Source of the DNA: a virus
Direction: 5' to 3' (one strand)
Length of the DNA stretch: 32,116 nt
Virus record (IMG/VR): IMGVR_UViG_3300044527_000317
Location: 1 to 32,116 of that record
Every line of letters begins with the position of its first letter. The first letter of the stretch is position 1. A model generated the notes under the pieces. The model saw only the letters and a list, made by a program, of their open reading frames with translations. It did no database searches and was not told the DNA's origin. The position numbers and the translations under genes are program-made. Shown in pieces: positions 1,919-32,116 of this stretch.

Positions 1919-3448
1919 ATGGCATGGGTCATCGGCGCAGACACGGATCTGCCACTGAACGAGACGCTGCGCTGGGACGGCCCGGGCGCGGCGCGGCGCG
2001 TCTTCGAGCTGGCCATGTTCGACAGCGACGAGCCCGACTATGAGCTGGCGCGGCGGGCGTTCCTCGTGTACGACGACGAGCGGCCCGAGCTGCGCGGCAG
2101 CTATAAGCTCGGCATCGCCGACGTGATCGACGGCGAGCTGTACGTGCTGTCGAGCGGCCTGCGCGCCGCGGCGTCGCGCCTGCCACAGACCGCTGACCTC
2201 GACGAGGACATCGTCAACGAGGCGCGGGCCATCATCGACTCCTACGTGGCCGAGATGGACGACGACGACGAGGAGCGACGCAAGGTCGCGCCGCCCGTGC
2301 CCGAGACGAAGGTCGACGCGCCGGCCTGGCTGCGCGCGAACGCGCGGCGGGGCCTCGAGTGGCACCGCGACGGCCTGTCGGGCGACGGCGTGGTCGAGCG
2401 CACGATCCGCGAGGCGCGGCAGATGGCCGACGGGTTCGTGAGCGAGGACAAGGCCGTCCGGATGGCGGCGTGGTTCGCGCGGCACATGGCCGACCTCGAC
2501 GCGCCGGCGGCGAACCCGGACCACGAGGACTACCCGTCGCCGGGCGTCGTCGCGCACGCGCTGTGGGGCGGTGGCACGCGGCGCCAGTCGGAGCGGGCGC
2601 AGCGCTGGGCGGAGGAGCAGGTGGCCAGCATGGAACGATCGCAGCGGTCCCGCGCGTCGCGCCACGAGCGCAAGGCGGGCTTCCTGATGCCGTCGTCGAT
2701 CAATGATCGCACGGTGACCGGCATCTTCTCGGTGTTCGGCAACATGGACAGCTACGCCGACATCATCCACAACGGCGCGTTCTCGAAGACGCTGTCGGAG
2801 CGTGCCGGGCGCGTGCTGCATCTGTGGCAGCACGACATGGACGCGCCGCCGATCGCGCTGATCGACTCGATCCGCGAGGTGCCGCGCCAGGCGCTGCCGG
2901 CGGAGGTGCTGATGCGCGCCCCGACGGCGACGGGCGGCGCCGAGGTGACGCGGACGTACCTCGACACGCCGCGCGCCAACGAGGTGCTGACGGCGATCCG
3001 CAGCGGCGCGCCGCTCGAGATGAGCTTCGCCTTCGACGCCGTGCGGTTCGACTTCGAGGAGAACGCCAGCAGCCCGCTCGGCGTGATCCGCAACCTGCGC
3101 GAGCTGAAGCTCTACGAGACCAGCGACGTCAACTGGGGCGCGAACAGCGCCACGGTCGCGGCGAAGGCGCGGAGCACGACGATGCCGCTGGGCACACTGC
3201 TGCACGCGCTGCGGGCGGCGATGAAGGCCGGGGCACGGCACTCGACGCGCGACACACAGCTTATCAACCAGATCGCCGAGGCGGCGATCGAGCTCGGCGC
3301 CACCAGTGTGCGCCTGATCAATCAGCCTGATCCCGACGAGGAGCGCGCCGCGCGTGTCGCACCCGCTCTGCCGGTGGATGGTCGAGAACGCCAACTGCGG
3401 GTAGCAGCGGCGGCACTGGCGCTGCTGCGGAGTGGGAGAACCTCATGA
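1919..3448 (+). CDS. Prohead maturation protease with N-terminal extra domains
   Basis: A serine protease that processes the capsid shell during maturation. The protease core covers about residues 245-430: FSVFGNMDSYADIIHNGAF, the catalytic-His segment LWQHD (His305), the catalytic-Ser segment EMSFAF (Ser369) and then ETSDVNWGANSATV. At 509 residues it is over twice the usual length of about 200. Residues 1-115 resemble a domain often found ahead of phage proteases (SYKLGIADVIDGELYV), and about 135-235 hold a second module ending PSPGVVAHALWGGG plus a Trp/Arg-rich helix. The C-terminal 80 residues are helical and may act as scaffold. A strong AGGAGG lies 6 nt before the ATG. A TATACT at 1891 might be a weak internal promoter, but no good -35 was found. 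Confidence 0.9.
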   Translation: MAWVIGADTDLPLNETLRWDGPGAARRVFELAMFDSDEPDYELARRAFLVYDDERPELRGSYKLGIADVIDGELYVLSSGLRAAASRLPQTADLDEDIVNEARAIIDSYVAEMDDDDEERRKVAPPVPETKVDAPAWLRANARRGLEWHRDGLSGDGVVERTIREARQMADGFVSEDKAVRMAAWFARHMADLDAPAANPDHEDYPSPGVVAHALWGGGTRRQSERAQRWAEEQVASMERSQRSRASRHERKAGFLMPSSINDRTVTGIFSVFGNMDSYADIIHNGAFSKTLSERAGRVLHLWQHDMDAPPIALIDSIREVPRQALPAEVLMRAPTATGGAEVTRTYLDTPRANEVLTAIRSGAPLEMSFAFDAVRFDFEENASSPLGVIRNLRELKLYETSDVNWGANSATVAAKARSTTMPLGTLLHALRAAMKAGARHSTRDTQLINQIAEAAIELGATSVRLINQPDPDEERAARVAPALPVDGRERQLRVAAAALALLRSGRTS

Positions 3449-4668
3449 ACACCCAGAGCCTGTACAACGAGGCGACGGAGCTCTACGGCCGCGCGCGATC
3501 GCTGCTGGAGAACCCGAAGGGGCTGAGCGCGGATGACTCGGCCCAGTACGACCGCATCATGGAGCAGTTCGACGCCAAGATGGCCGACGCCAAGCGCCTG
3601 GAGCGCGATGCGGCGGCAGCGTCGGCGATGGCCCAGCTGAGCGCGCCGCAGCAGCGCCTCGGCATCGGCGGCGCCGCGTCGGGTAGCGACGTGGAGCAGC
3701 GCCAGCTGCAGCTCGTGCGCAACTGGTTCAAGGGCGGCATGCTGAGCGCCGCCGAGCGCAAGGACCTCTCCGCCGGCGTCGATGCGCAGGGCGGCTACCT
3801 CGTCGCTCCGGCGGTGCTGGCCAACGGCATCATCAAGTTCATCGACGACGAGGTGTTTCTGCGCCGTCTGGCAACGGTGATCCCGATGGACGTCGGCACC
3901 GAGCTGATCGCCCCGACGTGGGACGCCGATCCGGCTGACGCCGACTGGCTCACCGAGGTGGCGAGCGTGACCACCGACACGGCGATGCGCACCGGCCTCC
4001 GCACGCTGCGGCCCACGCGGCTCAGCAAGGAAGTCAAGATCAGCCGCACGCTGGTGAACCAGTCGCGCGTCAACATCGAGCAGTGGGTGCAGGCCCGGCT
4101 CGCCTACAAGTTCGGCATCACCGAGGAGAAGGCGTTCCTGACCGGCACCGGGGCCAGCGGCCAGCCGCTCGGCGTGTTCACCGCGTCGGTGCAGGGCATC
4201 CCGACCTCGCGTGACACCACGGCGTCGGCGAGTACGTCGTTCACCGCGGACAACATCCTTGACACCAAGCACGCGCTGAAGGCGGCCTACTGGTCGCGCC
4301 CGGCGACGCGCTGGGTGATGCACCGCGACACCATCGCGCGGATCCGCAAGCTGAAGGACGGCTCGGGCAACTACCTGTGGTCGCCGGGGCTTGGACCGGG
4401 CGGTGGCATCACGCAGGGCCTGCCGGCGACCATCGCGGACGTGCCGTACCTGGTCAGCGAGTACGCGCCGAACACCTACACCGCCGGCCTGTATGTCGCC
4501 ATCATCGGTGACTTCTCGTACTACTACATCGCCGAGACGGGGCGCTACGAGCTGCAGGTGCTCGCCGAGCTCTACGCCAGCACCGATCAGATCGGCTACA
4601 TCGGTCGCACGTACGTCGACGGGCAGCCCGTGCTCGCCGAGGCATTCCAGCGCCTGAAGCTGGCCTGA
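3445..4668 (+). CDS. Major capsid protein, HK97 fold
   Basis: A 407-residue shell subunit. The first 70 residues are a charged helical delta/scaffold-like region that is probably cleaved off by the upstream protease. The mature part begins around the segment AERKDLSAGVDAQGGYLVAP, a hallmark start of HK97-type capsids, followed by an RLATVIPM strand, the E-loop-like WLTEVASVT region, KISRTLVNQS, and a G-rich A-domain segment with QPLGVF. Near the end come RYELQVLAELYA and a DGQPVLAEAFQRLKLA terminus. The gene overlaps the protease by ATGA at 3445-3448. It needs no separate scaffold gene, and none is visible. Neighbours on both sides are head genes, so the assignment is firm. Confidence 0.95.
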   Translation: MNTQSLYNEATELYGRARSLLENPKGLSADDSAQYDRIMEQFDAKMADAKRLERDAAAASAMAQLSAPQQRLGIGGAASGSDVEQRQLQLVRNWFKGGMLSAAERKDLSAGVDAQGGYLVAPAVLANGIIKFIDDEVFLRRLATVIPMDVGTELIAPTWDADPADADWLTEVASVTTDTAMRTGLRTLRPTRLSKEVKISRTLVNQSRVNIEQWVQARLAYKFGITEEKAFLTGTGASGQPLGVFTASVQGIPTSRDTTASASTSFTADNILDTKHALKAAYWSRPATRWVMHRDTIARIRKLKDGSGNYLWSPGLGPGGGITQGLPATIADVPYLVSEYAPNTYTAGLYVAIIGDFSYYYIAETGRYELQVLAELYASTDQIGYIGRTYVDGQPVLAEAFQRLKLA

Positions 4669-4678
4669 GGAGGAACCC

Positions 4679-5131
4679 ATGGCACACATCGGGCAGCTCA
4701 ACGAGAACGTCGAGGTCGCGTACGTCGGCGCGGCGATCTCCAACGCGAACAACACCGACAGCAACTCGACCCGGCTGGACATGCAGGGCTGGGACGGCGT
4801 CCTGTTCGTCACCACGATCACCGACAGCGCAGCGACGGGCGTCGCGACGCTGAAGGTCGAGCAGAACACCGCGGACAGCGACACCGGCATGGCGCTGATC
4901 ACCGGCGCATCGGCGGCGGTCACCTGCGCGGTGAACGACGACGTCAACGGCAAGATCCTGATCGTCGATGTGCGCGAGCCGCGCCAGCGGTACGTGCAGG
5001 CGGTGCGCACCAGCGCCACGGCCAACATCGCGTTCGGGGAGGTCATCGCGATCCGGTACGGCCCGCGCCTGGCCCCGGCGGCGCTCTCGAGCACGGCGGC
5101 GGCGGCGGCTGAGGTCGTCAGCGGCGCGTAA
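4679..5131 (+). CDS. Capsid-associated small beta protein (decoration candidate)
   Basis: A 150-residue protein directly after the capsid gene with a good ribosome site (GAGGAACCC before ATG). It is predicted beta-rich: DMQGWDGVLFVTTITDSA, then VATLKVEQNTADSDTGM and a KILIVDVREPRQRYVQAV strand. This pattern (a strand, a gap, then DVxxPRxRYV) is common in small proteins encoded next to phage capsid genes that decorate or cement the shell. I do not recognise a named family with certainty. The C-terminus is an alanine-rich tail. Position and size support a virion role; the decoration function is inferred. Confidence 0.6.
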   Translation: MAHIGQLNENVEVAYVGAAISNANNTDSNSTRLDMQGWDGVLFVTTITDSAATGVATLKVEQNTADSDTGMALITGASAAVTCAVNDDVNGKILIVDVREPRQRYVQAVRTSATANIAFGEVIAIRYGPRLAPAALSSTAAAAAEVVSGA

Positions 5132-5142
5132 GGAGGACTACG

Positions 5143-5637
5143 ATGACCTACAACAGCTCCAACTACCAGGAGCAGGGCGGGGAGTCGTGGGTCGTCGGTG
5201 GCAGCCAGACGGTGAGTGGTACGCTCACCGTCTCCGGCACACTGGCGGCCAGCGGCGCGACGCTCAACGGACTGATCCGCGTCGACAAGGTCGCGCTGGC
5301 GGCCGTCGACACCGCGGGCGGCGTCTTCGCGTGGGCGAACCCGGCGGGCGCGGCGATCATCGTGCACTCGGTGATCCTCGACGTGACGACGTTCACCACC
5401 GGCGCATGCACCATCGATGTCGGCGTCGCGGCGAACGCCACCACGCTGAACGACACGCTGCTTGACGGGCAGTCGCTGGCCACGGCGGCGAAGGTGCTGA
5501 ACAGCGCCACCAACGCCGGCACCAACGGCTCGATGTCACGCAAGGTCACGTCGACGCAGTTCGTCACCGGCTCGGTGGCCAGCGGCGCATCGGCGGGGCT
5601 GGTCGGCAACGCGTACATCAGCTGGTCGCTGGTCTGA
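5143..5637 (+). CDS. Capsid-associated protein, low-complexity N-terminus (decoration or head-fibre candidate)
   Basis: A 164-residue protein starting NYQEQGGESWVVGG, followed by alternating TVSGTLTVSGTLAASGATLNG-type Ser/Gly/Thr beta repeats and then a compact beta domain (residues about 45-164). The opening NYQEQGG...WVVGG and a short beta-repeat spacer occur in many phage proteins encoded just after the capsid gene. AAGGAGG precedes the ATG closely. The repeat spacer may project the domain from the shell. No enzymatic motif is visible. The exact function is inferred only from position and composition. Confidence 0.55.
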   Translation: MTYNSSNYQEQGGESWVVGGSQTVSGTLTVSGTLAASGATLNGLIRVDKVALAAVDTAGGVFAWANPAGAAIIVHSVILDVTTFTTGACTIDVGVAANATTLNDTLLDGQSLATAAKVLNSATNAGTNGSMSRKVTSTQFVTGSVASGASAGLVGNAYISWSLV

Positions 5638-7658: not shown

Positions 7659-8360
7659 ATGGCAGACAACTACGACATCCTGGAACCCACGTCGGCCCCG
7701 TCGGGCACGACCACACGCACGGTGCGGGCCATCGACGTGGGCAGCGGCAACCTCGCCGGGGCGGCGGTGCTGGTCGATACCAGTGGCAATCCACTGATTG
7801 GCGTGCAGAACCGTAGCGACTCGCTGCCGGTGACCATCGCGAACGAGGATACACTCGCGCTGGCACGATACCGCGTCAGCACGTATAACACCACGAATCC
7901 CACCGGGACACATATTCCGCCACTGCCGAGCGGCGAAGTCAACGACGTGCTGAATAATGGTGCGACGCAGGGCGTCGCAAATGATTTCCTGTTCACTTCG
8001 GGTGCCGGCGGAGCGCGAACCATCTTCTGGGAGATCCCAGTGGTCAATGCTGGATACAACACGGTCGCGGTCCTGATCCAATGGCTGATAGCCCCAGCTA
8101 CTAGTGGAGTCGAAATCAGCTACCTACCCAATGGTTCGGTCATTCAGGCGACGTTCACCAATGCCGCCGGCGCAAGTCGTGTGCTCTCAATGGTCAACAG
8201 CGAAGGCGCGGCATACACTGCCAGCGTCAGTATGGCTGCAAACACGATTGCGCGATTGGCCATGGAGTACGGATCGCTGCGCACCGCATATCTGCAGTTT
8301 ACGGGTCTGTCTGGTATCACAGGCGGATCGTATCAGTTCACCGTCATCCGATCGCGATAA
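7659..8360 (+). CDS. Unknown protein inserted in the tail module (lower GC)
   Basis: 233 residues. It opens NYDILEPTSAPSGTTTRTVRA, then repeated beta strands rich in Asn, Thr and Gly (STYNTTNPTGTHIPPLPSG, GGARTIFWEIPVVNAG, LQFTGLSGITGGSYQFTV). No membrane segment or catalytic motif. From about 7850 to 8350 the DNA is clearly richer in A/T than its neighbours, with codons such as AAT, ATA, ACT and GGA that are rare elsewhere here. It lies between the tail terminator and tube genes, where many phages carry nothing. It may be a tail-surface or virion accessory protein acquired separately. I do not recognise the family. Confidence 0.7.
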   Translation: MADNYDILEPTSAPSGTTTRTVRAIDVGSGNLAGAAVLVDTSGNPLIGVQNRSDSLPVTIANEDTLALARYRVSTYNTTNPTGTHIPPLPSGEVNDVLNNGATQGVANDFLFTSGAGGARTIFWEIPVVNAGYNTVAVLIQWLIAPATSGVEISYLPNGSVIQATFTNAAGASRVLSMVNSEGAAYTASVSMAANTIARLAMEYGSLRTAYLQFTGLSGITGGSYQFTVIRSR

Positions 8361-8376
8361 CCTAGGGAGGGCTTCA

Positions 8377-9387
8377 ATGGCCGTCGAGCTAGCCTTTGAG
8401 ACGCTGCTGGCGTCGATCGAATCCACGCGGGGCACGGCGATCGCAGCGCCGACGCACCTGATTCACCTGGGCGGCTCGGTGACGCCCACGAAGAGCCTCA
8501 ACCGTCCGGCGGAGTCGCGCGGCGTCCTCGCCGAGGCGTTCCGCACCGTCATGACGCGCACCGGCGCCACGTTCGAGATCACCGAGGGCCCCATCGACAC
8601 GTCGATGCTGCCGTTCCTGCTCAACGGGATCCTCGACGGCAACGTCACGGCGGCGACCACCCCAAGCGGCGCAACGAACACGCGAGACTGGGCCTTTGTG
8701 CGCACCATGGCCAGCGACAATCTGGAGTCGTACACGCTCTGGTTCGGTGACAGCGCGGTACGGCAGCTCATCGGCGCCTACGCGATGTTCCTCGAGGCGA
8801 CGCTGTCCAACGACGCGTCCGCCGAGGACGGCGTCTTGACCTTCAGCGGCAACGGCGAGTGCCGCAAGTTGGCGACGAACAGCCCGGCGGACTCGGCCCC
8901 GGCGGCGATCGCCGGGGCGATGCTCCCGGGCCAGATGATGTCGCTGTGGATCGACACCAGCTCGGCGTTCGGCACCACGGCCGTCACCGGGCGACTGGTG
9001 AGCGCGTCGCACACGCTGCGCACCGGCGTCACCTTCAAGTACCTCGGCGGCGGCGATGCCGCGACGCTCGACTTCTCGCGCACCGGGCGCAGCCGCGTCA
9101 TCGGCATCACCACCACGATCGTGATGGAGCTGCCCGACTTCACGCAGTACGACCAGTGGCTGGCCCACGACACCGTGAAGGTGCGCGTCCGGCACAACGG
9201 CGCGGTGATCGAGAGCGGCTTTAACCACTACGTCCAGGTCGACACCGCCGGTCCGTTCGAGGCGCTGAGCTGGGGCACCAACGCCGACAGCAACCGCACG
9301 GTCGAGCTGACCATCGAGGGCACCTACGACTCCACACTGACCAGCGACTGCCAGATCGTGGTGCGCAACGCGCGGACCGCACTGTAA
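8377..9387 (+). CDS. Major tail tube protein
   Basis: 336 residues starting AVELAFETLLASIESTRGTAI; the opening 'E..F..L....E...GTA..PT' is common in siphovirus tail-tube subunits. It is beta-rich with no membrane segments: SVTPTKSLNRPAESRGVL, FEITEGPIDTSMLPFLLNG, YTLWFGDSAVRQLIGAYAM, SHTLRTGVTFKYLGGG, and closes with RTVELTIEGTYDSTLTS. The ATG at 8377 follows GGGAGGGCTTCA, a strong ribosome site; the longer open frame upstream lies inside the previous gene. It comes directly before the frameshifted chaperone pair and the tape measure, the fixed order tube - chaperones - tape measure. Confidence 0.85.
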   Translation: MAVELAFETLLASIESTRGTAIAAPTHLIHLGGSVTPTKSLNRPAESRGVLAEAFRTVMTRTGATFEITEGPIDTSMLPFLLNGILDGNVTAATTPSGATNTRDWAFVRTMASDNLESYTLWFGDSAVRQLIGAYAMFLEATLSNDASAEDGVLTFSGNGECRKLATNSPADSAPAAIAGAMLPGQMMSLWIDTSSAFGTTAVTGRLVSASHTLRTGVTFKYLGGGDAATLDFSRTGRSRVIGITTTIVMELPDFTQYDQWLAHDTVKVRVRHNGAVIESGFNHYVQVDTAGPFEALSWGTNADSNRTVELTIEGTYDSTLTSDCQIVVRNARTAL

Positions 9388-9991: not shown

Positions 9992-12936
9992 TGGCCTTCA
10001 ATCTCGAAATCATCGTCAAGCTCCGCAACGAGGCCCAGAAGGCGCTCGGCGATCTGAACACCGGGCTCGTCGGGCTGGGCAAGGGCGCGGCGGCGGCGGC
10101 GGTGGGCGGCATCGCTGCGATCGGCGCGGGGCTGATCAACATCGGCGATCAGGCCAGTAACGCACGCACGGTGCTGCAGGGCCTGAACGATGTCGACCTC
10201 ACGGCCGTCCTCGACGACGCGCAGCTGCTGGCGCGACGATACGGCACGGACGTGACATCTGTGATCGCTGCCACGCGCACGCTCATGGACGAGTTCGGCC
10301 TCACCAGCGCGGAGGCCACGGACGTGATCGCGTCCGGCTTCGCTCGAGGCCTCGATGCGAGCGGCGACTTCCTGGACTCCATCGGCGAGTACAGCAATCT
10401 GTTCGCCGACAATGGCGCCAGCGCGACCGAGTTTTTCTCGATGCTGGAGAGCGGTATGGCTGGCGGCGTGCTGGGCACCGACAAGGCGGCCGATGCCTTC
10501 AAGGAGTTCGGAATCAGGCTCAGCGAGCTGACAACTGGCGAGGGCGACGTCGTGCTCAAGCCGGTGATCGGTGGCGAGCCGGGCCAGATGGCCGAGCGGT
10601 TCGTCAGTGATCTGGAGGACGCGCTGTACTTCACCGACCTCACCGACGAGGTCAAGGTCAACCTGTATGAGGGCCTGCAGAGCGGGGCGATCGACACAGC
10701 GGACGCGTTCAAGATCATCATGCCCGCGTTGGCCGGCATCGAGAGCGAGGTCGAGCGCAACGCCGCCGGGGTCCAGCTGTTCGGCACGCAGTGGGAGGAC
10801 CTCGGCCCCGAGGCCATGACCGCCCTGACCATGGCCGGCGACAGCCTGAGCACACTGGGCGACGTGGCCGACACCGAGCGCGCGACGATCCAGTCGCTCG
10901 GCGAAGTCCCGGCGATGATCTTCGACAAGTTCTCGCTGGCGCTGCTGCCGGTCAGCGATCTGATTCTCGGCGTCGTCAATGCGGTCATGAGCGCCGAGGA
11001 TCCGCTCGCCACGCTCATCGACAAGGTGGTCGAGCTCATCCCGGGCTTCGAGCAGTTCGCCGGCCAGGGCGCCGAGATCTCGCGCCAGCTGCAGCCGTTC
11101 ATCCAGCTGGTCAAAGACAATCTGGTACCGATCGTCATTGCGCTGGCCGCCGTGATCGGCGTGGCACTGGTCGCGGCGTTCGTGGCGATCGCCGCGCCAA
11201 TCGCCAAGATCGTGCTGGTGACGTCGCTCTTTGTGGCCGGGCTGTTTGCCGCCGTGATGGCGGCCCAGAAGTTCTGGCAGGAGATCAGCACCAGGTTCCC
11301 ACAGGTGCAGGCCGTGGTCGACATGGCGATGATCGAGGTGCAGGCCACCATCCAGACGGTGATGCACGGCATCAGCGTCATCGTCAGCGAGACGCTCAAG
11401 GCGTTACAGCAGTTCTGGGCTGACAACGGCGACGGCATCATGAAGACGGTCGTCGCCGCGTTTGGCGTCATCGGTAAGCTCTTCCAGAACGCGATGCAGA
11501 TGATCCGTGCGGTGGTCGACACCGCGCTCGCGCTGATCCGTGGCGACTGGACTGCATTCAGCGATGGGCTGAAGAAGATCACCAATCTGTTCGTCAAGGG
11601 TCAGGAGCTCGGCTTCAAGCTGCTGTGGACCATCGTAGGCCCGATCATCAACGTCATCAAGAACGGCATCGTGGGCGGACTGACTGCGGCATGGAACGGG
11701 ATCAAGCCACATCTCGACAGCATCAGGACCGGCATCATCAATGCGCTGACCAACGCGTGGAACGGTATCACCGGCAACCTCGCCAACATCAAGAACGGCA
11801 TCGTCAACGCGATCAACGATGCGTGGAACGGTATCACCGGGTATCTCGCGAACATCCGGGATCGCATCACCAGCACGATCAGAGACGCCTGGAATGGCAT
11901 CACCGGCAACCTCGCCAACATCAAGAATGGGATCGTCAGCGCGATCAACGATGCGTGGAATAACATCACCGGCAACCTCGCCAACATCAAGAATGGGATC
12001 GTCAGCGCGATCAACGATGCGTGGAATAACATCACCGGCAACCTCGCCAACATCAAGAATGGGATCGTCAACGCGATCAACGATGCGTGGAATGGCATCA
12101 CCGGCAACCTCGCCAACATCAAGAATGGGATCGTCAACGCGATCGGTGATGCGTGGAACGGCATCACCGGGTATCTCGCCAACATCCGGGATCGCATCAC
12201 CAGCACGATCAGAGACGCCTGGAATGGCATCACCGGTAACCTCGCCAACATCCGGAACGGGATCATCAACGCGATCAACGATGCGTGGAACGGCATCACC
12301 GGGTATCTCGCGAACATCCGGGATCGCATCACCAGCACGATCAAAGACGCGTGGAATGGCATCACCGGCAACCTTGCCAACATCAAGACCGGCATCATCA
12401 ACGCGATCAAGGACGCCGCGAGCGGCATCACCGCACCACTGGGGAACATCTACACGAGCGTGGTGAATGCGATGGAAGGCGTCAAGACGTGGCTGCAAAA
12501 GACGTTTAGCTGGGGCAGTATTCCAGGCGACCTTGGAAAGTCCATCGTCGATGGGATCGGCAAAGGCATTAGCGCCGGAGTCAAAGCTGTTGGCGATGCG
12601 CTCAATGCCGTCATCGCTGCCGCCTCCGCCGCGCTGCCGCAGTGGATTCGAGACGGCCTGAAGCTACCGAGTCCAGCGAAGCCGCCACCGAAGCCACCGA
12701 AGCCGCCGGCGCCGCCGCCAGCGCTGGGCCCAGGCAGTGTGATGCCACCGGGCGGTCGCGCAGGCATCTCCACCCTGGGCGAGCTGCCAGGGCGTACCGG
12801 CGTTACGATCAACATCACCATCGGCTCGGTGCGTGACCAGCGCGACATCGACGCCATCGAGCGCGCCGTAACGCGTGGCATGGACGAGGCGGCGCGACGC
12901 GGCATCGTGCAGTCGCAGCTCCCACGAGGTATCTGA
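9991..12936 (+). CDS. Tape measure protein
   Basis: 981 residues from a GTG that overlaps the chaperone stop by one base. It sets tail length and is ejected ahead of the DNA. N-terminal helices (NLEIIVKLRNEAQKALGDLN) lead into a glycine/alanine stretch, then the recurrent tape-measure region ARRYGTDVTSVIAATRTLMD ... EFFSMLESGMAGG. A long hydrophobic block lies at about 381-425 (ALAAVIGVALVAAFVAIAA). Residues 567-830 are twelve tandem 22-residue repeats. A proline-rich linker (about 890-920) precedes a C-terminal helix. Scaled by the usual 1.5 angstrom per residue, the tail would be of the order of 150 nm, if the repeats are helical. Confidence 0.95.
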   Translation: MAFNLEIIVKLRNEAQKALGDLNTGLVGLGKGAAAAAVGGIAAIGAGLINIGDQASNARTVLQGLNDVDLTAVLDDAQLLARRYGTDVTSVIAATRTLMDEFGLTSAEATDVIASGFARGLDASGDFLDSIGEYSNLFADNGASATEFFSMLESGMAGGVLGTDKAADAFKEFGIRLSELTTGEGDVVLKPVIGGEPGQMAERFVSDLEDALYFTDLTDEVKVNLYEGLQSGAIDTADAFKIIMPALAGIESEVERNAAGVQLFGTQWEDLGPEAMTALTMAGDSLSTLGDVADTERATIQSLGEVPAMIFDKFSLALLPVSDLILGVVNAVMSAEDPLATLIDKVVELIPGFEQFAGQGAEISRQLQPFIQLVKDNLVPIVIALAAVIGVALVAAFVAIAAPIAKIVLVTSLFVAGLFAAVMAAQKFWQEISTRFPQVQAVVDMAMIEVQATIQTVMHGISVIVSETLKALQQFWADNGDGIMKTVVAAFGVIGKLFQNAMQMIRAVVDTALALIRGDWTAFSDGLKKITNLFVKGQELGFKLLWTIVGPIINVIKNGIVGGLTAAWNGIKPHLDSIRTGIINALTNAWNGITGNLANIKNGIVNAINDAWNGITGYLANIRDRITSTIRDAWNGITGNLANIKNGIVSAINDAWNNITGNLANIKNGIVSAINDAWNNITGNLANIKNGIVNAINDAWNGITGNLANIKNGIVNAIGDAWNGITGYLANIRDRITSTIRDAWNGITGNLANIRNGIINAINDAWNGITGYLANIRDRITSTIKDAWNGITGNLANIKTGIINAIKDAASGITAPLGNIYTSVVNAMEGVKTWLQKTFSWGSIPGDLGKSIVDGIGKGISAGVKAVGDALNAVIAAASAALPQWIRDGLKLPSPAKPPPKPPKPPAPPPALGPGSVMPPGGRAGISTLGELPGRTGVTINITIGSVRDQRDIDAIERAVTRGMDEAARRGIVQSQLPRGI
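11689..12480 (+). repeat. Twelve tandem 66-bp repeats inside the tape measure gene
   Basis: Exactly 12 units of 66 bp (22 codons). The consensus unit is AWNGITGNLANIKNGIVNAI plus ND. Units 3, 8 and 10 carry a second type, with GYLANIRDRITSTI in place of GNLANIKNGIVNAI. The first and last units are the most diverged (the last begins AASGITAPLGNI). 22 residues are two 11-residue hendecads, suiting a long helical coiled-coil. Near-identical DNA in units 4-7 (for example around 11941-12130) points to recent duplication or gene conversion. Confidence 0.93.
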
Positions 12937-17190: not shown

Positions 17191-17551
17191 ACGTGCCTCC
17201 CAGGTAGGCGATGATGATCTCGATCGCCTCGTCGGCGCCACGCGCCACGGCGACGGCGTAGCCCTCGGCGCGCAGCGCGTCCATCCAGCCGTGCTGGTCG
17301 GCACTGACCTGGCCGCCCTTGCGGCGCTTCATCTCGATCCACAGGCCGTGGTACGGCGCCACGGCCACGGGCAGCAGCAGATCGGGCACGCCGGGGCGCA
17401 CGCCGAGGCGGCGCAGTCGCGCGGCCGTTGCGATGTGCCGCTGGCCGCCGTTCGGCACGTGCAGCAGCAGCCTGGCGCGCGCGTCGGCGAGCGCATATCC
17501 TTCGCACCACGCCACCACGGCGAGCTGCTCGGTGTCCTCGGTCGGGATCAT
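17180..17551 (-). CDS. VRR-NUC family nuclease
   Basis: 123 residues. The PD-(D/E)xK nuclease core is clear: HVPNGGQR (31-38), GVPDLLLPV (54-62, Asp57), WIEMKRRKGG (71-80, Glu73 and Lys75), then QHGWMDALRAEGYAVAVARG with Gln86. Stand-alone VRR-NUC proteins of this size are frequent in phages and are structure-specific endonucleases that cut branched DNA such as flaps and Holliday junctions, metal-dependent. The ATG at 17551 overlaps the preceding stop (4 bp), indicating coupling to the Mom-like gene. It probably resolves branched replication intermediates before packaging. The family is firm; the substrate is inferred. Confidence 0.88.
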   Translation of the reverse strand: MIPTEDTEQLAVVAWCEGYALADARARLLLHVPNGGQRHIATAARLRRLGVRPGVPDLLLPVAVAPYHGLWIEMKRRKGGQVSADQHGWMDALRAEGYAVAVARGADEAIEIIIAYLGGTYAQ

Positions 17552-18207
17552 AGCAGGGCTCCTTGCATGACTGCCGCGCGCGTGGCGCGGATGCGGATTG
17601 CACGCGGGTTGATGGCAGACAGTCGGCGGATGTGACTGTCCTGTGCCTCGGTCAGTGGCGCCAGGCGATGCGCGAACGTCTCGATGCCGCGCGCGTTGCG
17701 GCGCATCAGCTGGAACCGCGCGACGCGGTAGATATAGCCGCTGTGCACGCGAGTGTCGCAGTAGGACACGAGCATCCGCAGCTGGTAGGGCTGCGTGACA
17801 TCGATCGGCGGCAGGTGCTGCAGCCAGTCGTAGTGGACGCGCTGCATCAGGGCGCGGATCAGCGTGCTGGCGCCGCGCTCGACGTGATGCGTGCCGTCGC
17901 GCTGCACGCGCGGATCGAGCCACACGCGGGCGAGGTTCAGCAGCTCCCAGCGATCGTACTGCGCGCGCCCGCTGTCCACGTCGGCGGCGCTGCCGTACGT
18001 CAGGCGCGATGCCCGGTCATAGCACGCCGTCGACTCCAGCCGCGACACGATGAGCGTGCCGACCGGCTCCTCGATCGCCGCGTGACGCACGATGTAGGCC
18101 ATCGGCGAGCACGTGTCATGCACGCGCTGGTGCAGGTAGTGGTGCGCGACCACAGTGGCCTGCGCCCAGCGCTGCTCGGCGCGCGTGGCGAGGTGCAGCG
18201 TCAGCAT
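17548..18207 (-). CDS. Mom-like DNA base modification protein (GNAT-related)
   Basis: 219 residues, starting one base after the lysozyme-like gene stop. Three blocks match my memory of the Mu Mom family, a GNAT-fold group that modifies adenine in phage DNA: HHYLHQ at 22-27, ELLNLARVWLDP at 88-99, and LVSYCDTRVHSGYIYRVARF at 146-165 (family pattern 'hSyaD....H.G.iYra..F'). Between the last two lies a helix with ASTLIRALMQRV, matching the 'S..i..a...i' helix. In Mu, Mom converts adenine to N6-(methylcarbamoyl)adenine and blocks restriction. The chemistry here is not proven and could differ. Neighbours are a nuclease and DNA-binding proteins. A plain acetyltransferase acting on a protein or small molecule is the alternative. 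Confidence 0.75.
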   Translation of the reverse strand: MLTLHLATRAEQRWAQATVVAHHYLHQRVHDTCSPMAYIVRHAAIEEPVGTLIVSRLESTACYDRASRLTYGSAADVDSGRAQYDRWELLNLARVWLDPRVQRDGTHHVERGASTLIRALMQRVHYDWLQHLPPIDVTQPYQLRMLVSYCDTRVHSGYIYRVARFQLMRRNARGIETFAHRLAPLTEAQDSHIRRLSAINPRAIRIRATRAAVMQGALL

Positions 18208-18208
18208 C

Positions 18209-18532
18209 TCACCACCAGCCTTGTCGCTGCCATGCGCGCCACGCGGCGCACAGGTCGCCGTAGCGGCCATCGGCGTAGTCCATGAACCATCGGGTCTGGT
18301 CTGGCACCATCCACGGCCGTGGTGGTGCCCCGTGCGTCGGCATGTGGCGCTGCGCCAGGCCGACGCTGGCGCCGGCATCGCCGAGCGCCTGCGGCACCCA
18401 GCGCGACTCGCGCTCGATGATCGCGTCGAGGCACGGGTACTCGCTCTCGCGCCCGGCGATGGCCAGCGTCCACCACACGTCGAGCTGGTCGACGGTGCGG
18501 ACTTCGGCGGGCGGCGGCGGGGGTGGAACCAT
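18209..18532 (-). CDS. Small lytic-transglycosylase / lysozyme-like protein
   Basis: 107 residues from the ATG at 18532. After MVPPPPPPAEV comes CLDAIIERESRWVPQA (Glu42 the likely catalytic acid), then GDAGASVGLAQRH (51-63), which follows the lysozyme-superfamily pattern 'E(S)xW.p.A....a.GL.Q'. The end, DYADGRYGDLCAAWRAWQRQ, matches the closing helix of phage transglycosylase-like proteins. It has no signal peptide or membrane segment. Its place in the leftward, presumably early unit, away from the amidase and holin genes, is unusual; it may act in the cell or be packaged. The long open frame upstream is shadow of the neighbouring gene. Confidence 0.7.
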   Translation of the reverse strand: MVPPPPPPAEVRTVDQLDVWWTLAIAGRESEYPCLDAIIERESRWVPQALGDAGASVGLAQRHMPTHGAPPRPWMVPDQTRWFMDYADGRYGDLCAAWRAWQRQGWW

Positions 18533-22223: not shown

Positions 22224-23399
22224 TCACCTCGTCATCGGCATGATCACGGCCTCGATGCACGCGCTGGCCCGCGGTTGTGCGTCAGCGTCCCACATGATCG
22301 CCGACAGGTACGGCGGCATGGTCGCCGTGCCCATCGTGAGCACCACGTCGCCGCCGCACGCCTTCAGCGCGTCGGCGACGTAGGCCAGGTTCAGCAGCGC
22401 CTCGCCGCTGCCTGCGCCGTCCTGCACGGCGATCGGCACGCTCACCTGCCGCCCTTCGTGCTGCGCGGTGACCAGCAGTCCGTCGGCGCCCAGCACGAAC
22501 CGCGCGCACGGCGTCGTCGACGCGCCCTTCGGCGCGCTGTACAGCTGCCCCAGACGCACAGCGCTCTGCAGCGTGGCCAGCGCGTCGCCGGTGATCCGGC
22601 AGCGGTTCGGCGACTCGCGCGACGGCTGCAGCACGCGCTCGAGCTGCGGGAACGCCCCGTGGATCGTGCGCGTCCACATCGTCACATCGCCGCCCACGGC
22701 GCACAGCACGCCGTCCATGACGCCGATCTGCTCGATCGGCAGCGTGGCCAGCACGACGCACGCCGCGCGCGGCACGATCACGTCCAGGCGATGGCCGACG
22801 ACATCGTCGCCGGTCTGCGTCAGGCTGGCGCGATGCGCGCGATACCCGTCGGACGACTCGAGCGTCACGTCGTCGTCGTCGACCACGACGTGCACGCCGG
22901 CCAGCGCCGGGCGTCCGGTGTCGGTCGCTGCCGACAGCAGCGTGGCCGCCAGTGCCCGCGACAGGAACGCCGCGGGCACGGGCGTCATGCCGTCCGGCGC
23001 CAGGCGCGCCTCCGGCCACTCGGCGGCCTCCATCATCGGCAGCGACGCCGTGACGCGTCCGGCGCTGATCGTCATCAGGCTGCCAGCCTCGACGGCGCGG
23101 TACGGCGGGGCGCTGATCTCGACCTCGATCTCCTGCACGCTCGCCGGCAGCGCCGCGATCGTCTTGCTCATGAGCTCGTGGTCGACCACCGTGCTGATGC
23201 CGGTGCCAACCTGGCCGCAGCGCACCGTCATGTCCAGGCTGGTGCACTCGGCATAGCGCAGCGACGCCGCGGCATCGGCGTTCTCATCCCACACCAGCAG
23301 CACGCCGGCGAGGATCGGGACTGGCGGCTTCTTCACTGCGACACGGCCGACGATGGCGAGGCGGTCGCGGAGCGTCTTGACGTTCGTGGTGATCCGCAT
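22224..23399 (-). CDS. dnaN: DNA polymerase III beta sliding clamp homologue
   Basis: 391 residues from the ATG at 23399; the frame upstream is not coding. It has the clamp three-domain layout: domain 1 with LRDRLAIVGRVAVKKPPVPI then LAGVLL, and LMTISAGRVTASLPMMEA; domain 2 with FLSRALAATLLSAATDTGRP then ALAGVHV, VTLESSDGYRAHRASL, and FPQLERVLQPS; domain 3 with LATLQSAVRLGQLYS, ARFVLGADGLLVTA and EALLNLAYVADALKACGG. Clamps encircle DNA and tether polymerases and repair enzymes. Length is slightly above the bacterial norm of about 370. No polymerase or clamp loader gene is visible in the window, so it probably works with host subunits. Phage-encoded bacterial-type clamps are uncommon. Confidence 0.9.
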   Translation of the reverse strand: MRITTNVKTLRDRLAIVGRVAVKKPPVPILAGVLLVWDENADAAASLRYAECTSLDMTVRCGQVGTGISTVVDHELMSKTIAALPASVQEIEVEISAPPYRAVEAGSLMTISAGRVTASLPMMEAAEWPEARLAPDGMTPVPAAFLSRALAATLLSAATDTGRPALAGVHVVVDDDDVTLESSDGYRAHRASLTQTGDDVVGHRLDVIVPRAACVVLATLPIEQIGVMDGVLCAVGGDVTMWTRTIHGAFPQLERVLQPSRESPNRCRITGDALATLQSAVRLGQLYSAPKGASTTPCARFVLGADGLLVTAQHEGRQVSVPIAVQDGAGSGEALLNLAYVADALKACGGDVVLTMGTATMPPYLSAIMWDADAQPRASACIEAVIMPMTR

Positions 23400-23459
23400 G
23401 GTCTGGTCTCCTCGTGTGCTCAGGCGCGCCTGGCACCGTGCTGGGCGCGCCACGATCGA

Positions 23460-25318: not shown

Positions 25319-25351
25319 ATGTCCGAGACCGAGTATAGGAGATGCCGATGA
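25319..25351 (+). CDS. Possible leader peptide of 10 residues before the primase-helicase
   Basis: ATG at 25319, MSETEYRRCR, stop TGA at 25349-25351 overlapping the next start as ATGA. CAGGAGATTCTG gives it a good ribosome site. It repeats the layout seen before the regulator gene: a 10-residue frame ending on the next start codon. It may couple translation of the initiator to passage of ribosomes, or be chance. Confidence 0.4.
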   Translation: MSETEYRRCR

Positions 25352-27330
25352 CGTCGTCAATTCGTGAGTTGCTGTGGCTGTTGCCGAGCGCATTGACCAG
25401 CCAGCCCGACCTGTGGCTGTCGTGGGATGCCGCGAACAAAAAGCCGGGCCTCGACGAGCGCTGGCAGAAGGACCCGTCCGTGCTGCGCGCCGCCTACCAG
25501 GTGTGCGATGCGATCGGCAAGCGCCAGCTGGGCATCGCGCGCGTCATGCGCGGCGACATCGTGGCGCTCGACCTCGACAAGGTGGTCAGCACGCCGCGCG
25601 ATCTGTCGACGCTGGTCGACTGGGCGCATCCGATCGTCGCCGCCGCGCTCGGCCACGGGTACATCGAGTGGTCGGCGTCCGGGCGCGGCATCCACGTCCT
25701 GCTGCGCGACGTGCCCGAGGGGTGGCAGCGCAAGACCGCGCACCGCCGGGACGATGGCAGTGGCTGGGACTGGATCATCGGCGACAATCTGTGCCACATC
25801 ACGCTCGATGTCATCAGCGACGAGAACAGCCGCCAGATGGTGCCGGCGGCGGACATCATCCCGATCCTCGAGCGCATGCTGCCGAAGCTCGCGCCAGCGC
25901 CGCGCCCCGTCGTGACGCCACCGACGACGACGGCCGTGATCGCCGACGCCGAGCGCCTGCACCGATATGGCGCGATGGCGATGGAGCAGGAGATCGCCGA
26001 GCTGTCGGCCACCATCGAGGGCGGGCGCAACCACGCGCTGAACAAGGCAGCGTTCGCCCTGGGGCAGCTCTCCGCCGGCGGATGCATCGCCGACGTCAAC
26101 GGCATGATGGACGCCGTGATGGGCATCGCCATCGCCATCGGGCTCGATCGCGGCGAAGTCGCGCGGACGTTCCAGAGCGGCTTCGTGGCGGGCCAGAACG
26201 TCCCGCGCGCCCCGCTCGATCGGCCCGAGCGCAGGCCGACGCTGCCGCCGCGCAGGACGCAACCAGCAGCCCCACAAGCCGCCAATGCGACGCCTCCGGT
26301 ATCATCGCCGCAGCCCGCACAGAAGCCCGCACAGAAGCCCGCTGGCGCAGCCGAGTACACCGGCCAGGACGAGACGACGTTCCGCGTCGCGCCGCCCCAC
26401 ACCGATGACGGCATCACGCTCGCCGAGCTGCAACACAAGCACTTCGAGGATCTGCGCTGGGTCATCGAGGACATCGCGCCGGAGGGCGCCCTGCTCATCG
26501 CCGCCAAGCCGAAGGCGAAGAAGTCGTGGCTGGCGCTCAACCTCGGCCTGGCCATCGCGATGGGCGGGCGCGCACTGGGGCGCTACAACGTCATGCAGGG
26601 CGACGTGCTGTACCTCGATCTCGAAGGCAACCAGCGCCGCATCCAGTCGCGCGTGCGCCAGATCCTCGGCGTGCAGGACGTGGCATGGCCGGCCAACTTC
26701 CACGTGCACACCGAGTGGGGCGTCGGCGATGCGTGCATCAACGAGCTGCGCGAGTGGCTGCTGCGCCATCCGACCACGACCGCCGTGGTGGTCGACCTGC
26801 TGCACGAGATCCGCCCGCCGCTCGACCCGCGCGAGGATCGGTACGCCTACGATCGCAACATGCTGGTCGCCCTGAACAAGCTGGCCGAAGAGCTCCACGT
26901 CTGCATCATGGTCATCCACCACACGCGCAAGATGAAGGGTGACGACGTCTTCGAGGAGATCAGCGGCACGCTCGGCATCACCGGCGCGGTGTCGACCATC
27001 TGGGTGCTGTCGAAGGCGCAGGACGGCACCGTGACGCTCAACGTGCAGGGACGTGACCTGGTGCACGACGAGCCGCTCGCGCTCGAGTGGGACACGATGC
27101 TGTGCGGGTTCCGCGTGTCGGGGCTGGCCAGCGAGGTCGCCGTCTCCGATACCCGCCGCCGCATCATCGAGTTCCTCGACGACGATCAGCAGCACAGCCC
27201 GCGCGAGATCGCCGAGGCTATCGAGGCCTCGGTCGGCAGCGTCGACCAGCAGCTGCGGCAGATGCTCAGCGCAGGCGTCGTCGAGAAGATCGGCTATGGC
27301 CGCTGGAGACTCATCCGCAGGGCTCAGTAA
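25348..27330 (+). CDS. Primase-helicase / replication initiator (AEP-like plus RepA-like ATPase)
   Basis: 660 residues. The ATG at 25348 is preferred over 25342 because AGGAG is 6 nt before it. Residues about 1-180 resemble an archaeo-eukaryotic-type primase: VALDLDK (Asp75, Asp77) and IEWSASGRGIHVLL (His116). Residues 225-290 (GGRNHALNKAAFALGQLSAG) are a helical linker domain seen after such primases. After a Pro/Gln linker, about 360-590 are a RepA-like RecA-fold ATPase: Walker A LIAAKPKAKKSWLAL, Walker B AVVVDLL (479-485) and MVIHHTRK (521-528). The C-terminus is a winged helix. The Walker A has Ala-Lys-Lys-Ser where Gly-Lys-Ser is usual. Directly upstream of the iterons, it fits an origin-binding initiator. 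Confidence 0.85.
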   Translation: MTSSIRELLWLLPSALTSQPDLWLSWDAANKKPGLDERWQKDPSVLRAAYQVCDAIGKRQLGIARVMRGDIVALDLDKVVSTPRDLSTLVDWAHPIVAAALGHGYIEWSASGRGIHVLLRDVPEGWQRKTAHRRDDGSGWDWIIGDNLCHITLDVISDENSRQMVPAADIIPILERMLPKLAPAPRPVVTPPTTTAVIADAERLHRYGAMAMEQEIAELSATIEGGRNHALNKAAFALGQLSAGGCIADVNGMMDAVMGIAIAIGLDRGEVARTFQSGFVAGQNVPRAPLDRPERRPTLPPRRTQPAAPQAANATPPVSSPQPAQKPAQKPAGAAEYTGQDETTFRVAPPHTDDGITLAELQHKHFEDLRWVIEDIAPEGALLIAAKPKAKKSWLALNLGLAIAMGGRALGRYNVMQGDVLYLDLEGNQRRIQSRVRQILGVQDVAWPANFHVHTEWGVGDACINELREWLLRHPTTTAVVVDLLHEIRPPLDPREDRYAYDRNMLVALNKLAEELHVCIMVIHHTRKMKGDDVFEEISGTLGITGAVSTIWVLSKAQDGTVTLNVQGRDLVHDEPLALEWDTMLCGFRVSGLASEVAVSDTRRRIIEFLDDDQQHSPREIAEAIEASVGSVDQQLRQMLSAGVVEKIGYGRWRLIRRAQ

Positions 27331-27331
27331 G

Positions 27332-27480
27332 ATTGCCCTAAGAGTCTAAGACTTAGGGCGCTTATGGCTTCACCAAGCCAAACAGCGCCCTAAGAGTTGC
27401 CCTAAGAGTGCCCTAAGACTAAGTCTTAGACTCTTAGGGGTCTTAGGGGTCTTAGGACTCTTAGGGGTCTTAGGGCAATT
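27332..27480. repeat. Iteron cluster, candidate replication origin
   Basis: About ten copies of CCCTAAGA or its complement TCTTAGGG lie in 150 bp. Forward copies start at 27336, 27388, 27400 and 27411; reverse copies lie at 27430-27439, 27441, 27450, 27457 and 27469. A perfect 21-bp inverted repeat joins 27336-27356 to 27419-27439, and ATTGCCCTAAGA / TCTTAGGGCAAT (27332-27343, 27468-27479) bounds the cluster. A central nested dyad has TTAGGGCGCT / AGCGCCCTAA (27353-27362, 27384-27393) outside TGGCTT / AAGCCA (27365-27380). It is non-coding, clearly more A/T-rich than the genome and immediately follows the initiator gene. Confidence 0.8.
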
Positions 27481-27512
27481 CTCTATGGTGACGGAGCACA
27501 AGGAGCCCCTAC

Positions 27513-27806
27513 GTGACAGACCTCATGTCGACGATCAGCGCGCACCTGGCTGCGCACGATCCCGAGCTGGCGCGATGGCTGTGCGCGGCCCCGCGCAGCC
27601 ATCGCGGCACCATCGTGCAGTTCTACCTCGAGGTGGTGCCTGCGCTGCAGCAGTACGTGGACAGCTGCGGCATGCTCTGGACGTCGTGGGCGTATCTGAC
27701 GTACTACCCAGTCGATGTGCTGCCCGTCGACATCGTGACGCGTGCAATGGTCGTGGCCTACGCTGACGTGACGGAGACGCTCGAAGGACAAGGAGTCATG
27801 CCATGA
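27513..27806 (+). CDS. Unknown 97-residue helical protein
   Basis: Starts at GTG 27513, with AAGGAG 7 nt upstream. MSTISAHLAAHDPELARWLC, then IVQFYLEVVPALQQYVDSCG and LYVDSCGMLWTSWAYLTYYP-like aromatic sequence (MLWTSWAYLTYYPVDVLP), and AYADVTETLEGQGVMP. Mostly helical and acidic, with no signal peptide or clear transmembrane helix. It overlaps the methyltransferase start by ATGA (27803-27806), so the two are probably co-translated. No family recognised. Confidence 0.65.
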   Translation: MTDLMSTISAHLAAHDPELARWLCAAPRSHRGTIVQFYLEVVPALQQYVDSCGMLWTSWAYLTYYPVDVLPVDIVTRAMVVAYADVTETLEGQGVMP

Positions 27807-29101
27807 TGAAGAACGTGGACAAGGCGCCGTTCCCATGGTTCGGTGGCAAGGCAAAAGCCGCCGACCTGGTGTGGCGGCTGATCGGTGACGTGCCGCACTA
27901 CGTCGAGCCGTTCTATGGGTCCGGCGCCGTGCTGCTCAATCGGCCACATCCGGCGAATCGCCCGTACTACAGCGAGACCGTCAACGATCTGGACGGGTTC
28001 GTGGTGAACTTCTGGCGGGCCGTGCAGTGGTATCCCGACGATGTGGCCCATGCCGCGTCGTGGCCGGTCAGTGAGGCCGACAAGTCGGCGCGGCAGATCG
28101 CCCTGCTGCGATGGCGCGACGGGGCGCTCGATCGCCTCGCCGGTGATGCGTGCTGGTGCGATCCGCTGATGGCCGGGTGGTGGGCGTGGGCCGTCTCTGT
28201 CCAGATCGGGGGGTTTGACGGCAAGAGCGGCTGGACTGCCGACCCCAGCACCGGCAAGATCTATGCCCAGCCGCGCGGTAGGACACGCGAGCCGGGCGTC
28301 GCGCGCGACCTGCCGCATCTCGCCAACGACGGCCAGGGCGTCAACCACGCGGGGACACGCGAGCCGGGCGTCGCGCGCGACCTGCCGCATCTCGCCAACA
28401 ACGGCCAAGGCGTCAACCACGCGGGGACACGCGAGCCGGGCGTCGCGCGCAACCGGCCGCATCTCATCGGCAACGGCCAGGGCGTCAATCATCCGGGGAC
28501 ACGCGAGCCGGGCGTGCTCGATGTGCCGACGGCGGAGCACGGGCGCAGCCGACTGGACACCGTGGACTGGGGCGCGGCGTATCATGATCTGACGATGCCG
28601 GAGCTGATCCGCTGGCTGCGTCATCTGGCGGCGCGGCTGCGGCACGTGCGCATCCTCAACGGCGACTGGTCGCGACTGGTCACGACAGGCGCAGCGCACA
28701 CGCTGCCGGTGCGGCAGGGGCACGGCCCATGCGGCGTGTTTCTCGATCCGCCCTATGCGGACAGTGCCGCCCGGAATGACTCGCTGTATGCGTGCGAGGA
28801 TCTGCAGGTGGCGCACGATGTTCGCGCATGGTGTCTGTCCAACGGCAACAATCCTCTCTTCCGCATCGTCCTCGCCGGGTTTGATGGCGAGCACGGCAGC
28901 GCGCTGGTCGATGCGGGCTGGACTGAGCACGAGTGGTTCACAGCCGGGTTCCTGAGCGGCGGCATGGGCAACGTCGGCAAGAACGGCAAGACACACCAGC
29001 AGCATCGCGAGCGGCTCTGGTCGTCGCCGCACTGCCTGCCGCTGACATCGCAGACTCCGATCAGTCATCAGATCACGATGTTCACGGAGGACGAATCATG
29101 A
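27803..29101 (+). CDS. DNA adenine N6-methyltransferase, D12 (Dam-like) class, with internal repeats
   Basis: 432 residues. The D12-class order is clear: FPWFGGK (10-16), EPFYGSGAVLL (35-45, the SAM-binding FxGxG type motif), ETVNDLD (58-64) and FLDPPYAD (about 312-319, the catalytic DPPY). It transfers a methyl group from SAM to adenine N6 in a short target. Between the N-terminal part and the DPPY half, in the target-recognition region, lie three 24-residue repeats (161-232) of the form TREPGVARDLPHLANDGQGV plus NHAG and a fourth partial copy. The gene overlaps both neighbours by four bases. It probably protects phage DNA and, with the Mom-like protein, may act in a layered modification scheme. 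Confidence 0.9.
   Translation: MMKNVDKAPFPWFGGKAKAADLVWRLIGDVPHYVEPFYGSGAVLLNRPHPANRPYYSETVNDLDGFVVNFWRAVQWYPDDVAHAASWPVSEADKSARQIALLRWRDGALDRLAGDACWCDPLMAGWWAWAVSVQIGGFDGKSGWTADPSTGKIYAQPRGRTREPGVARDLPHLANDGQGVNHAGTREPGVARDLPHLANNGQGVNHAGTREPGVARNRPHLIGNGQGVNHPGTREPGVLDVPTAEHGRSRLDTVDWGAAYHDLTMPELIRWLRHLAARLRHVRILNGDWSRLVTTGAAHTLPVRQGHGPCGVFLDPPYADSAARNDSLYACEDLQVAHDVRAWCLSNGNNPLFRIVLAGFDGEHGSALVDAGWTEHEWFTAGFLSGGMGNVGKNGKTHQQHRERLWSSPHCLPLTSQTPISHQITMFTEDES
28283..28516 (+). repeat. Three and a fraction 72-bp tandem repeats inside the methyltransferase gene
   Basis: Units start at 28283, 28355, 28427 and (partial) 28499, each beginning ACACGCGAGCCGGGCGT. The first two units differ at only a few bases; the third is more diverged (RNRPHLIGNGQGVNHPG). 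The 72-bp length keeps the frame, so units can be gained or lost without breaking the protein. The motif PHLxNxGQGVN recurs in each unit. Confidence 0.92.
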
Positions 29102-31754: not shown

Positions 31755-32116
31755 TGTCGATCACATCGAGAGTTCGCCACGGTCTGGCGCGGTGGCTGCT
31801 GCGCGCTGGCGGCCTGAGCATCGTCCCGCGCTGGCTGGACAGCACGGTGCTGGAGCCGACGTGGCGCGCGCTGTCGCGCGACGGCTACCGGCGCAACGCC
31901 GCGGTGTTCTCGTGCGTCTCGACGCTCGCCTTCGATCTCGTCGAGCCAGCGATGCGCTGCTACAACGCGCAGGGCGAGGAGATGGGCGCATCGCCGCTGG
32001 CGCGACTGCTGGCGCGACCGAACGCGATGCACTCGCAGCGCGAGTTCTGGACGCTGCTGGCGGTGTACGCTGCGGTCGGCGGCAGCGCCTACATCCACGT
32101 CGTGCGCGATCGGCGC
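31754..32116 (+). CDS. Portal protein (5' part)
   Basis: The ATG at 31754 overlaps the large terminase stop in TGATG. The first 76 codons (SITSRVRHGLARWLLRAGGL, RRNAAVFSCVSTLAFDLVEP) join in frame to the sequence at base 12. The N-terminal pattern 'nsav.aCv..la.d.a...' is typical of HK97 portals. The part from 31971 on is the repeat of the window's start. One residue differs between the two copies (Ala here, Ser at 18-20). Confidence 0.92.
   Translation, partial: MSITSRVRHGLARWLLRAGGLSIVPRWLDSTVLEPTWRALSRDGYRRNAAVFSCVSTLAFDLVEPAMRCYNAQGEEMGASPLARLLARPNAMHSQREFWTLLAVYAAVGGSAYIHVVRDRR
31971..32116. repeat. Terminal direct repeat, right copy
   Basis: The same 146 bp as at the left end, with GCA at 31988-31990 where the left copy has AGC. 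Removing it gives a circular molecule of about 31,970 bp. Confidence 0.9.

Follow-up and report, generated by a model that had tools for sequence, protein, structure and literature searches.

Opposed repeats behind a predicted primase-helicase gene: a probable replication origin in a tailed phage and a recurring position in the AAA_25 family

An origin directly behind the gene of its own initiator is known from SaPI Rep and SCCmec Cch2, whose C-terminal domain binds short repeats immediately downstream of the gene (PMC7581432). The P4 alpha protein combines primase, helicase and winged-helix origin binding in one polypeptide, which binds origin repeats; in RSF1010, binding, unwinding and priming are carried out by RepC, RepA and RepB' together with hairpins; and in pRN1 a stem-loop downstream of the primase-helicase gene is required (PMC4234260 for all three). 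The repeats of an origin are located inside the initiator gene in the case of the TP901-1 and Tuc2009 replisome organisers (PMC8965321). Finally, a survey of AEP proteins described PrimQH-type proteins, which contain an AEP, a PriCT/ZnBD, a P-loop ATPase (including RepA-like ones) and a winged helix; the word "iteron" is absent from the main text of that survey (PMC5862659).

In this study, we analyzed a viral genome in which a cluster of short repeats follows a gene of this general kind. The window, i.e., the whole stretch of DNA examined, is IMG/VR record IMGVR_UViG_3300044527_000317 (32,116 bases, ~69% GC). Its two ends share 146 bp at 98% identity (1-146 versus 31971-32116, inside the portal gene), with one three-base mismatch block at bases 18-20 of the overlap. 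The genome is therefore circular or circularly permuted, with a circle of ~31.97 kb, as the preliminary description had presumed in speaking of a circle. Genes for an HK97-type capsid, prohead protease, tape measure and terminase, identified with Pfam and PHROGs, define the virus as a tailed phage. The terminase-nearest cellular record with a similar initiator is a Chloroflexota bin; since the terminase identity is 43%, this bin may not show the host.

Several other genes deserve mention. The phage encodes a DNA polymerase III beta-type sliding clamp (22224-23453, minus strand), and the scan of window proteins revealed no DNA polymerase. A weak Mom-like DNA modification match is located at 17551-18378 on the minus strand (Pfam E 4e-4, PHROG E 4e-5). 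The tape-measure gene carries a 66-bp tandem repeat (11713-12410, ~10.6 copies). An open reading frame for a D12-class adenine methyltransferase (27803-29101, plus strand), in which the family match is limited to the first ~85 residues, lies directly 3' of the candidate origin described below and has a 72-bp in-frame tandem repeat in its middle (28281-28515, 3.3 copies).

The gene preceding the repeat cluster, designated rep, codes for a predicted initiator composed of the following parts:

25342..27330, plus strand: rep, predicted initiator, 662 aa, with primase-polymerase-like, RepA/AAA_25-type helicase and winged-helix parts
25381..25821, plus strand: primase-polymerase-like domain, aa ~14-160, carrying the motifs LDLDKV and SGRGIH
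26431..26931, plus strand: AAA_25 / RepA-like helicase domain, aa 364-530 (Pfam AAA_25, E 3.5e-23)
27148..27288, plus strand: C-terminal winged helix-turn-helix, aa 603-649 (Pfam HTH_5, HTH_24 and HTH_20, E 1e-6 to 1e-7)

The N-terminal domain had no Pfam match. It matched PHROG 8643, DNA polymerase/primase (E 4e-6), and a profile of the rep N-terminus aligned with its relatives (A4) matched PDB chains named "Primase", i.e., 7rr4 (E 1e-4) and 6a9w (E 4e-4), the latter of which we take to be the NrS-1 phage primase-polymerase. LDLDKV and SGRGIH, which are kept in relatives, correspond to the DxD and sxH motifs of AEP primase-polymerases. The central part has the ATPase core of the AAA_25 / RSF1010 RepA-like family, and a wider-family profile (A3) matched the RSF1010 RepA structure 1g8y (E 2.6e-13). 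Its Walker A motif, KPKAKKS, lacks the usual glycine before the lysine and retains the lysine and serine. The domains are predicted from sequence profiles; the single AlphaFold model was poor (mean pLDDT 44), does not confirm the fold and was left out of the fold search.

The repeat cluster begins two bases past the rep stop codon, the place just after an initiator gene that the preliminary description had noted, and contains the following elements:

27332..27343 (plus) and 27468..27479 (minus): arms of an exact 12-bp outer inverted repeat
27336..27356 (plus) and 27419..27439 (minus): arms of a perfect 21-bp inverted repeat
27336..27343, plus strand: unit CCCTAAGA
27351..27358, minus strand: variant unit CCCTAAGT, one mismatch
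27352..27394, no strand assigned: 43-nt hairpin, CTTAGGGCGCT-TAT-GGCTT-CACC-AAGCC-AAAC-AGCGCCCTAAG, a possible priming site
27388..27395, plus strand: unit CCCTAAGA
27400..27407, plus strand: unit CCCTAAGA
27411..27418, plus strand: unit CCCTAAGA
27419..27429, no strand assigned: palindromic junction CTAAGTCTTAG, read off the sequence, where the two opposed blocks of units meet
27432..27439, minus strand: unit CCCTAAGA
27441..27448, minus strand: unit CCCTAAGA
27450..27457, minus strand: unit TCCTAAGA
27459..27466, minus strand: unit CCCTAAGA
27468..27475, minus strand: unit CCCTAAGA

The word CCTAAGA occurs nine times exactly in the cluster, four times forward (starts at 27337, 27389, 27401 and 27412) and then five times in reverse (27432, 27441, 27450, 27459 and 27468), and nowhere else in the 32-kb window, in which 0.26 copies are expected; nine copies were reached by no shuffle. 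When one mismatch is allowed, CCCTAAGT at 27351-27358 (minus strand) brings the total to ten CCCTAAGA-type units, and thus the earlier count of about ten units of both orientations in 150 bp holds, as do the 21-bp and 12-bp inverted repeats, both of which are exact. The exact units form two opposed blocks, ++++ and then ----- (chance 0.016), the forward units being spaced by 11-12 bp and the reverse ones by 9 bp. In 300 trials with simulated sequences having the base steps of the cluster, the longest inverted repeat was 16 bp, versus 21 bp here. When two-way clusters of 8-mers were scanned for without regard to the word, 27332-27480 also ranked first in the window (score 41 versus 13). The hairpin at 27352-27394 pairs non-repeat bases too (52-nt fold, -18.4 kcal/mol, z -7.6), and a search for the exact hairpin elsewhere did not find it; nor did the cluster region have a DNA match in the phage collection. 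The letters GTG/CAC in the hairpin loop (27371-27373) were considered as a priming motif, since GTG has been reported for pRN1 and GTGA/GTGG for NrS-1, and were discarded as a match of three to four letters that chance makes too likely. In other viral contigs, the CCTAAGA word was scattered, and the best cases were one-directional arrays unrelated to rep; e.g., a contig (L236) without a rep homologue has a one-directional 9-bp CCTAAGACT array at 8320-8445, near a phage-type RNA polymerase-like open reading frame, in which the word occurs by chance.

With 49% GC, the cluster has the lowest GC content among all 150-bp stretches of the ~69% GC genome, which bears out the AT-richness claimed in the preliminary description. 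The locus has three features of an iteron origin, i.e., a short word clustered above chance, an adjacent gene for the predicted cognate initiator and an AT-rich region. These same repeats could instead be a control site that Rep binds for copy control, genome pairing or repression, with the true origin elsewhere. Iteron sites have control roles in many replicons, and P4 carries two repeat sites, ori and crr. However, no second CCTAAGA set exists anywhere in this genome, autorepression from behind a gene would be an odd placement, and no other 150-bp stretch of the genome is as AT-rich. We regard a control site as improbable.

Searches with the terminase identified five phages with the same gene order, whose Rep proteins are 40% identical to that of the phage over residues 13-406; no near relatives of the whole protein were found beyond these five in viral and genome contigs. 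In all five, the word-blind 8-mer scan gave its highest rank to a two-way cluster that immediately follows the winged helix and is still within the open rep frame; the words there are TTGTCCCC and GTCGCCA, unlike CCTAAGA. On comparison of these sequences, the place of the cluster is conserved across the relatives and its sequence is not. The primase half is 40% identical to the relatives, and the helicase, the winged helix and the repeats differ; since the helicase and winged helix differ along with the repeats, a helicase/winged-helix/repeat module appears to have been exchanged. The clusters of the TTGTCCCC relatives are not the most AT-rich part of their genomes (14th-17th percentile for GC).

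The position within a coding frame in the relatives also bears on the idea that the cluster terminates transcription or acts as an RNA element ending the rep message. Its RNA fold is strong (z -8.3) and it contains one terminator-like match (27449-27476). Yet one such site is the shuffle level (1.1 expected), the downstream genes are co-directional and begin 180 bp further on, Rfam had no match for the cluster, and a terminator would not require ten copies of one word; together with the in-frame clusters of the relatives, these observations make a terminator or RNA element very improbable. A closer competitor is an origin of which the stem-loop or cruciform is recognized and the repeats merely form the stem, as proposed for pRN1, where the stem-loop is required and sequence-specific binding was not found. 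Consistent with this idea, the single-strand fold of 27325-27485 is far above shuffles (z -8.7) and the relatives retain a 31-pair hairpin. However, two-way repeats alone raise fold scores, and the hairpin of the relatives shows no compensatory changes, their sequences being too similar for a covariation test. Most units, moreover, are surplus one-direction tandem copies, in 9-bp reverse and 11-12-bp forward steps, that a stem does not need, and many members of the wider family have numerous units without a single dominant stem. Recognition of structure instead of the repeats is unlikely, if somewhat less so than a control site.

To examine the wider AAA_25 family, profile A3 was searched against ~300 genomes each of two phyla, Chloroflexota and Bacillota, and every locus was scored alike for its densest two-way cluster. 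Of 51 non-redundant loci, 33 had this cluster in the 3' zone of the AAA_25 gene, whereas 7.3 would be expected if every position in a locus were equally likely; the same assumption underlies the other expected locus counts, and most loci are only 3-4 kb long. Some of the 51 loci had prompted the hypothesis in the first place, and the unbiased figure is therefore that of a blind set of 39 non-redundant Chloroflexota and Bacillota loci, which were found by profile and uninspected beforehand. In this set, the cluster was at the 3' end of the gene in 24 loci (6.5 expected; none of 200,000 simulations) and, among loci with a full C-terminal domain, in 16 of 20 (3.0 expected). A control based on gene ends served as a safeguard against the equal-position assumption: scores of at least 10 were found at 41% of rep 3' ends, compared with 6% both for rep 5' sides and for the 3' ends of other long frames in the same loci. 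As in the phage, two-way units were grouped in opposed blocks beyond chance (95 runs versus 114 expected, P 0.0004). About 15 of the 39 independent members had no 3'-end cluster under this score, including some with a recognizable winged helix; among the gene tails scanned, a winged-helix/HTH match was present in ~15 of 20 with a cluster and ~4-5 of 10 without one. The preliminary description had considered opposed iterons able to form large cruciforms less common than simple direct ones, but in the AAA_25 initiator family two-way 3' repeats are the common state.

The repeat words differ between lineages. In the non-redundant set, repeat word and winged-helix similarity were not correlated (Mantel 0.023, p 0.33); significance was reached only when close relatives were included (Mantel 0.133, p 0.0005), and co-variation of word and winged helix, confined to fairly close relatives, was dropped as a general rule. 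Among phage and plasmid records that match the helicase/winged-helix half, inspection by eye revealed the word GTGACG at the matching place in elements of gut Bacillota, and two-way TTCACTCT words in the AAA family ATPase gene of Caldicellulosiruptor bescii plasmid pATHE01 (L164). In this plasmid, eleven GAGTGAA units in both directions, at 1721-1920, are in coding frame and directly follow the winged helix of the gene; the region is a candidate origin, and the thermophile that carries the plasmid is in culture. Rhizobium phage RHph_Y3_1 (L177) has two-way GGGAACG / CGTTCCC repeats (6031-6240 of L177) directly behind its DNA primase/helicase gene and, as an isolated phage, is a tractable test case for the layout. 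In the phage, this gene spans 10867-12933 and the repeats reach ~13.2 kb. In a Chloroflexota contig (L153), two-way TTGCGTACCC repeats and a hairpin (5081-5230) follow a Toprim-like primase/helicase/winged-helix fusion; as its primase is Toprim-like by eye and its helicase/winged helix is of the family's type, the primase half of these initiators appears to be exchangeable. A Clostridia contig (L160) has two-way GTGGGGAAA-type repeats (3320-3720) between an initiator-like open reading frame and a primase-like gene of 1206 aa, which appears to bear an intein.

Short-repeat clusters occur at partition sites also, and in one family member (L169) a ParB gene is located two genes downstream, so we considered whether the phage cluster might be a parS-like site. 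Against this, Pfam and PHROG scans of the window's proteins other than the small open reading frames matched neither ParA nor ParB, and family-wide the cluster follows the helicase gene rather than partition genes; a partition function is most unlikely. GC skew, which had been proposed earlier as a check, gave a divided answer: the minimum is 476 bp from the cluster in this phage, but ~3.4 kb off in three relatives, and in RHph_Y3_1 it is 6.8 kb from the cluster. With such equivocal distances across genomes, and with skew confounded by gene direction, it was not accepted as proof of an origin.

Of the readings considered, the candidate origin beside an initiator gene, proposed in the preliminary description, agrees best with the comparative data, i.e., the conserved place in the relatives and the recurrence at 3' ends in the family. 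The cluster is very probably the replication origin of the phage, predicted to be bound by the winged helix of its own Rep. In the mechanism we propose, the C-terminal winged helix would bind the CCCTAAGA units, and the two opposed blocks would seat two helicase assemblies, oriented toward or away from one another. The duplex may open at the most AT-rich stretch, the hairpin or the opened strands could offer a start to the primase-polymerase domain, and extension would be carried out by a host polymerase, perhaps aided by the phage sliding clamp. For every one of these steps, another system offers a precedent.

This arrangement resembles SaPI Rep/ori and SCCmec Cch2 in that a helicase initiator, predicted here, has its repeats just 3' of its gene. 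In those systems the primase is separate, whereas here primase, helicase and winged helix form one chain. The SaPI Rep and Cch2 helicases belong to a different family from RepA/AAA_25, and since the best Pfam match of the rep core is AAA_25, Rep would work like SaPI Rep without being a member of its family. The origin decamers of P4 run in both directions; its helicase is of the SF3 type, and P4 has a second repeat site. P4 alpha has a Toprim-type primase, in contrast to the single cluster, RepA-like helicase and AEP-like primase found here, the rep N-terminal profile matching AEP-type primases. The RSF1010 oriV/ssi system shares with the phage a RepA-like helicase, a primase, a repeat binder (predicted here), repeats and hairpins, but its three proteins are separate and here they are fused, and hairpin priming here is putative. 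By analogy, the best explanation is that Rep would unite in a single polypeptide the workings of SaPI Rep/ori, P4 alpha and RSF1010.

Other systems share part of the layout. The pRN1 ORF904 and the BIP-1/BPP-1 phage stem-loop systems likewise combine an AEP primase, a helicase and a winged helix with an origin just downstream (PMC4234260), but they have an SF3 helicase and an iteron-less stem-loop, in contrast to the RepA-like helicase and iteron array of this phage. TP901-1 and Tuc2009 have in-gene origin repeats, as do the clade of locus L130 and pATHE01; they differ in that the repeats are direct and the initiators are replisome organisers, which are not known to be primase-helicases. PrimQH-type proteins, compared by domain order only, have the same domain types in the same order as Rep (PMC5862659).

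An iteron origin beside its initiator is an already known kind, and the broader positional rule is the more interesting part of these data. We favor, with some reserve, the view that AAA_25 proteins with a C-terminal winged helix are widespread, largely unrecognized self-contained initiators that carry their own two-way origin repeats within or just past the 3' end of the gene, in a module that travels and swaps as a whole; that this class spans phages, plasmids and chromosomal elements seems likewise somewhat probable. A literature search, with most subscription journals outside its range, found no paper stating such a rule for AAA_25 proteins, which is weak evidence of novelty. As of 2022, AAA_25 proteins were described as having "no known function" (PMC8965321). 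The positional rule would give many of them a concrete and cheaply testable role, that of origin-binding initiator helicases. For uncultured phages, plasmids and integrated elements, it would also be a simple means of locating the origin, by a search for two-way repeats just past the gene end that encodes the winged helix, and the layout offers minimal one-protein replicons that may potentially be reconstituted in vitro.
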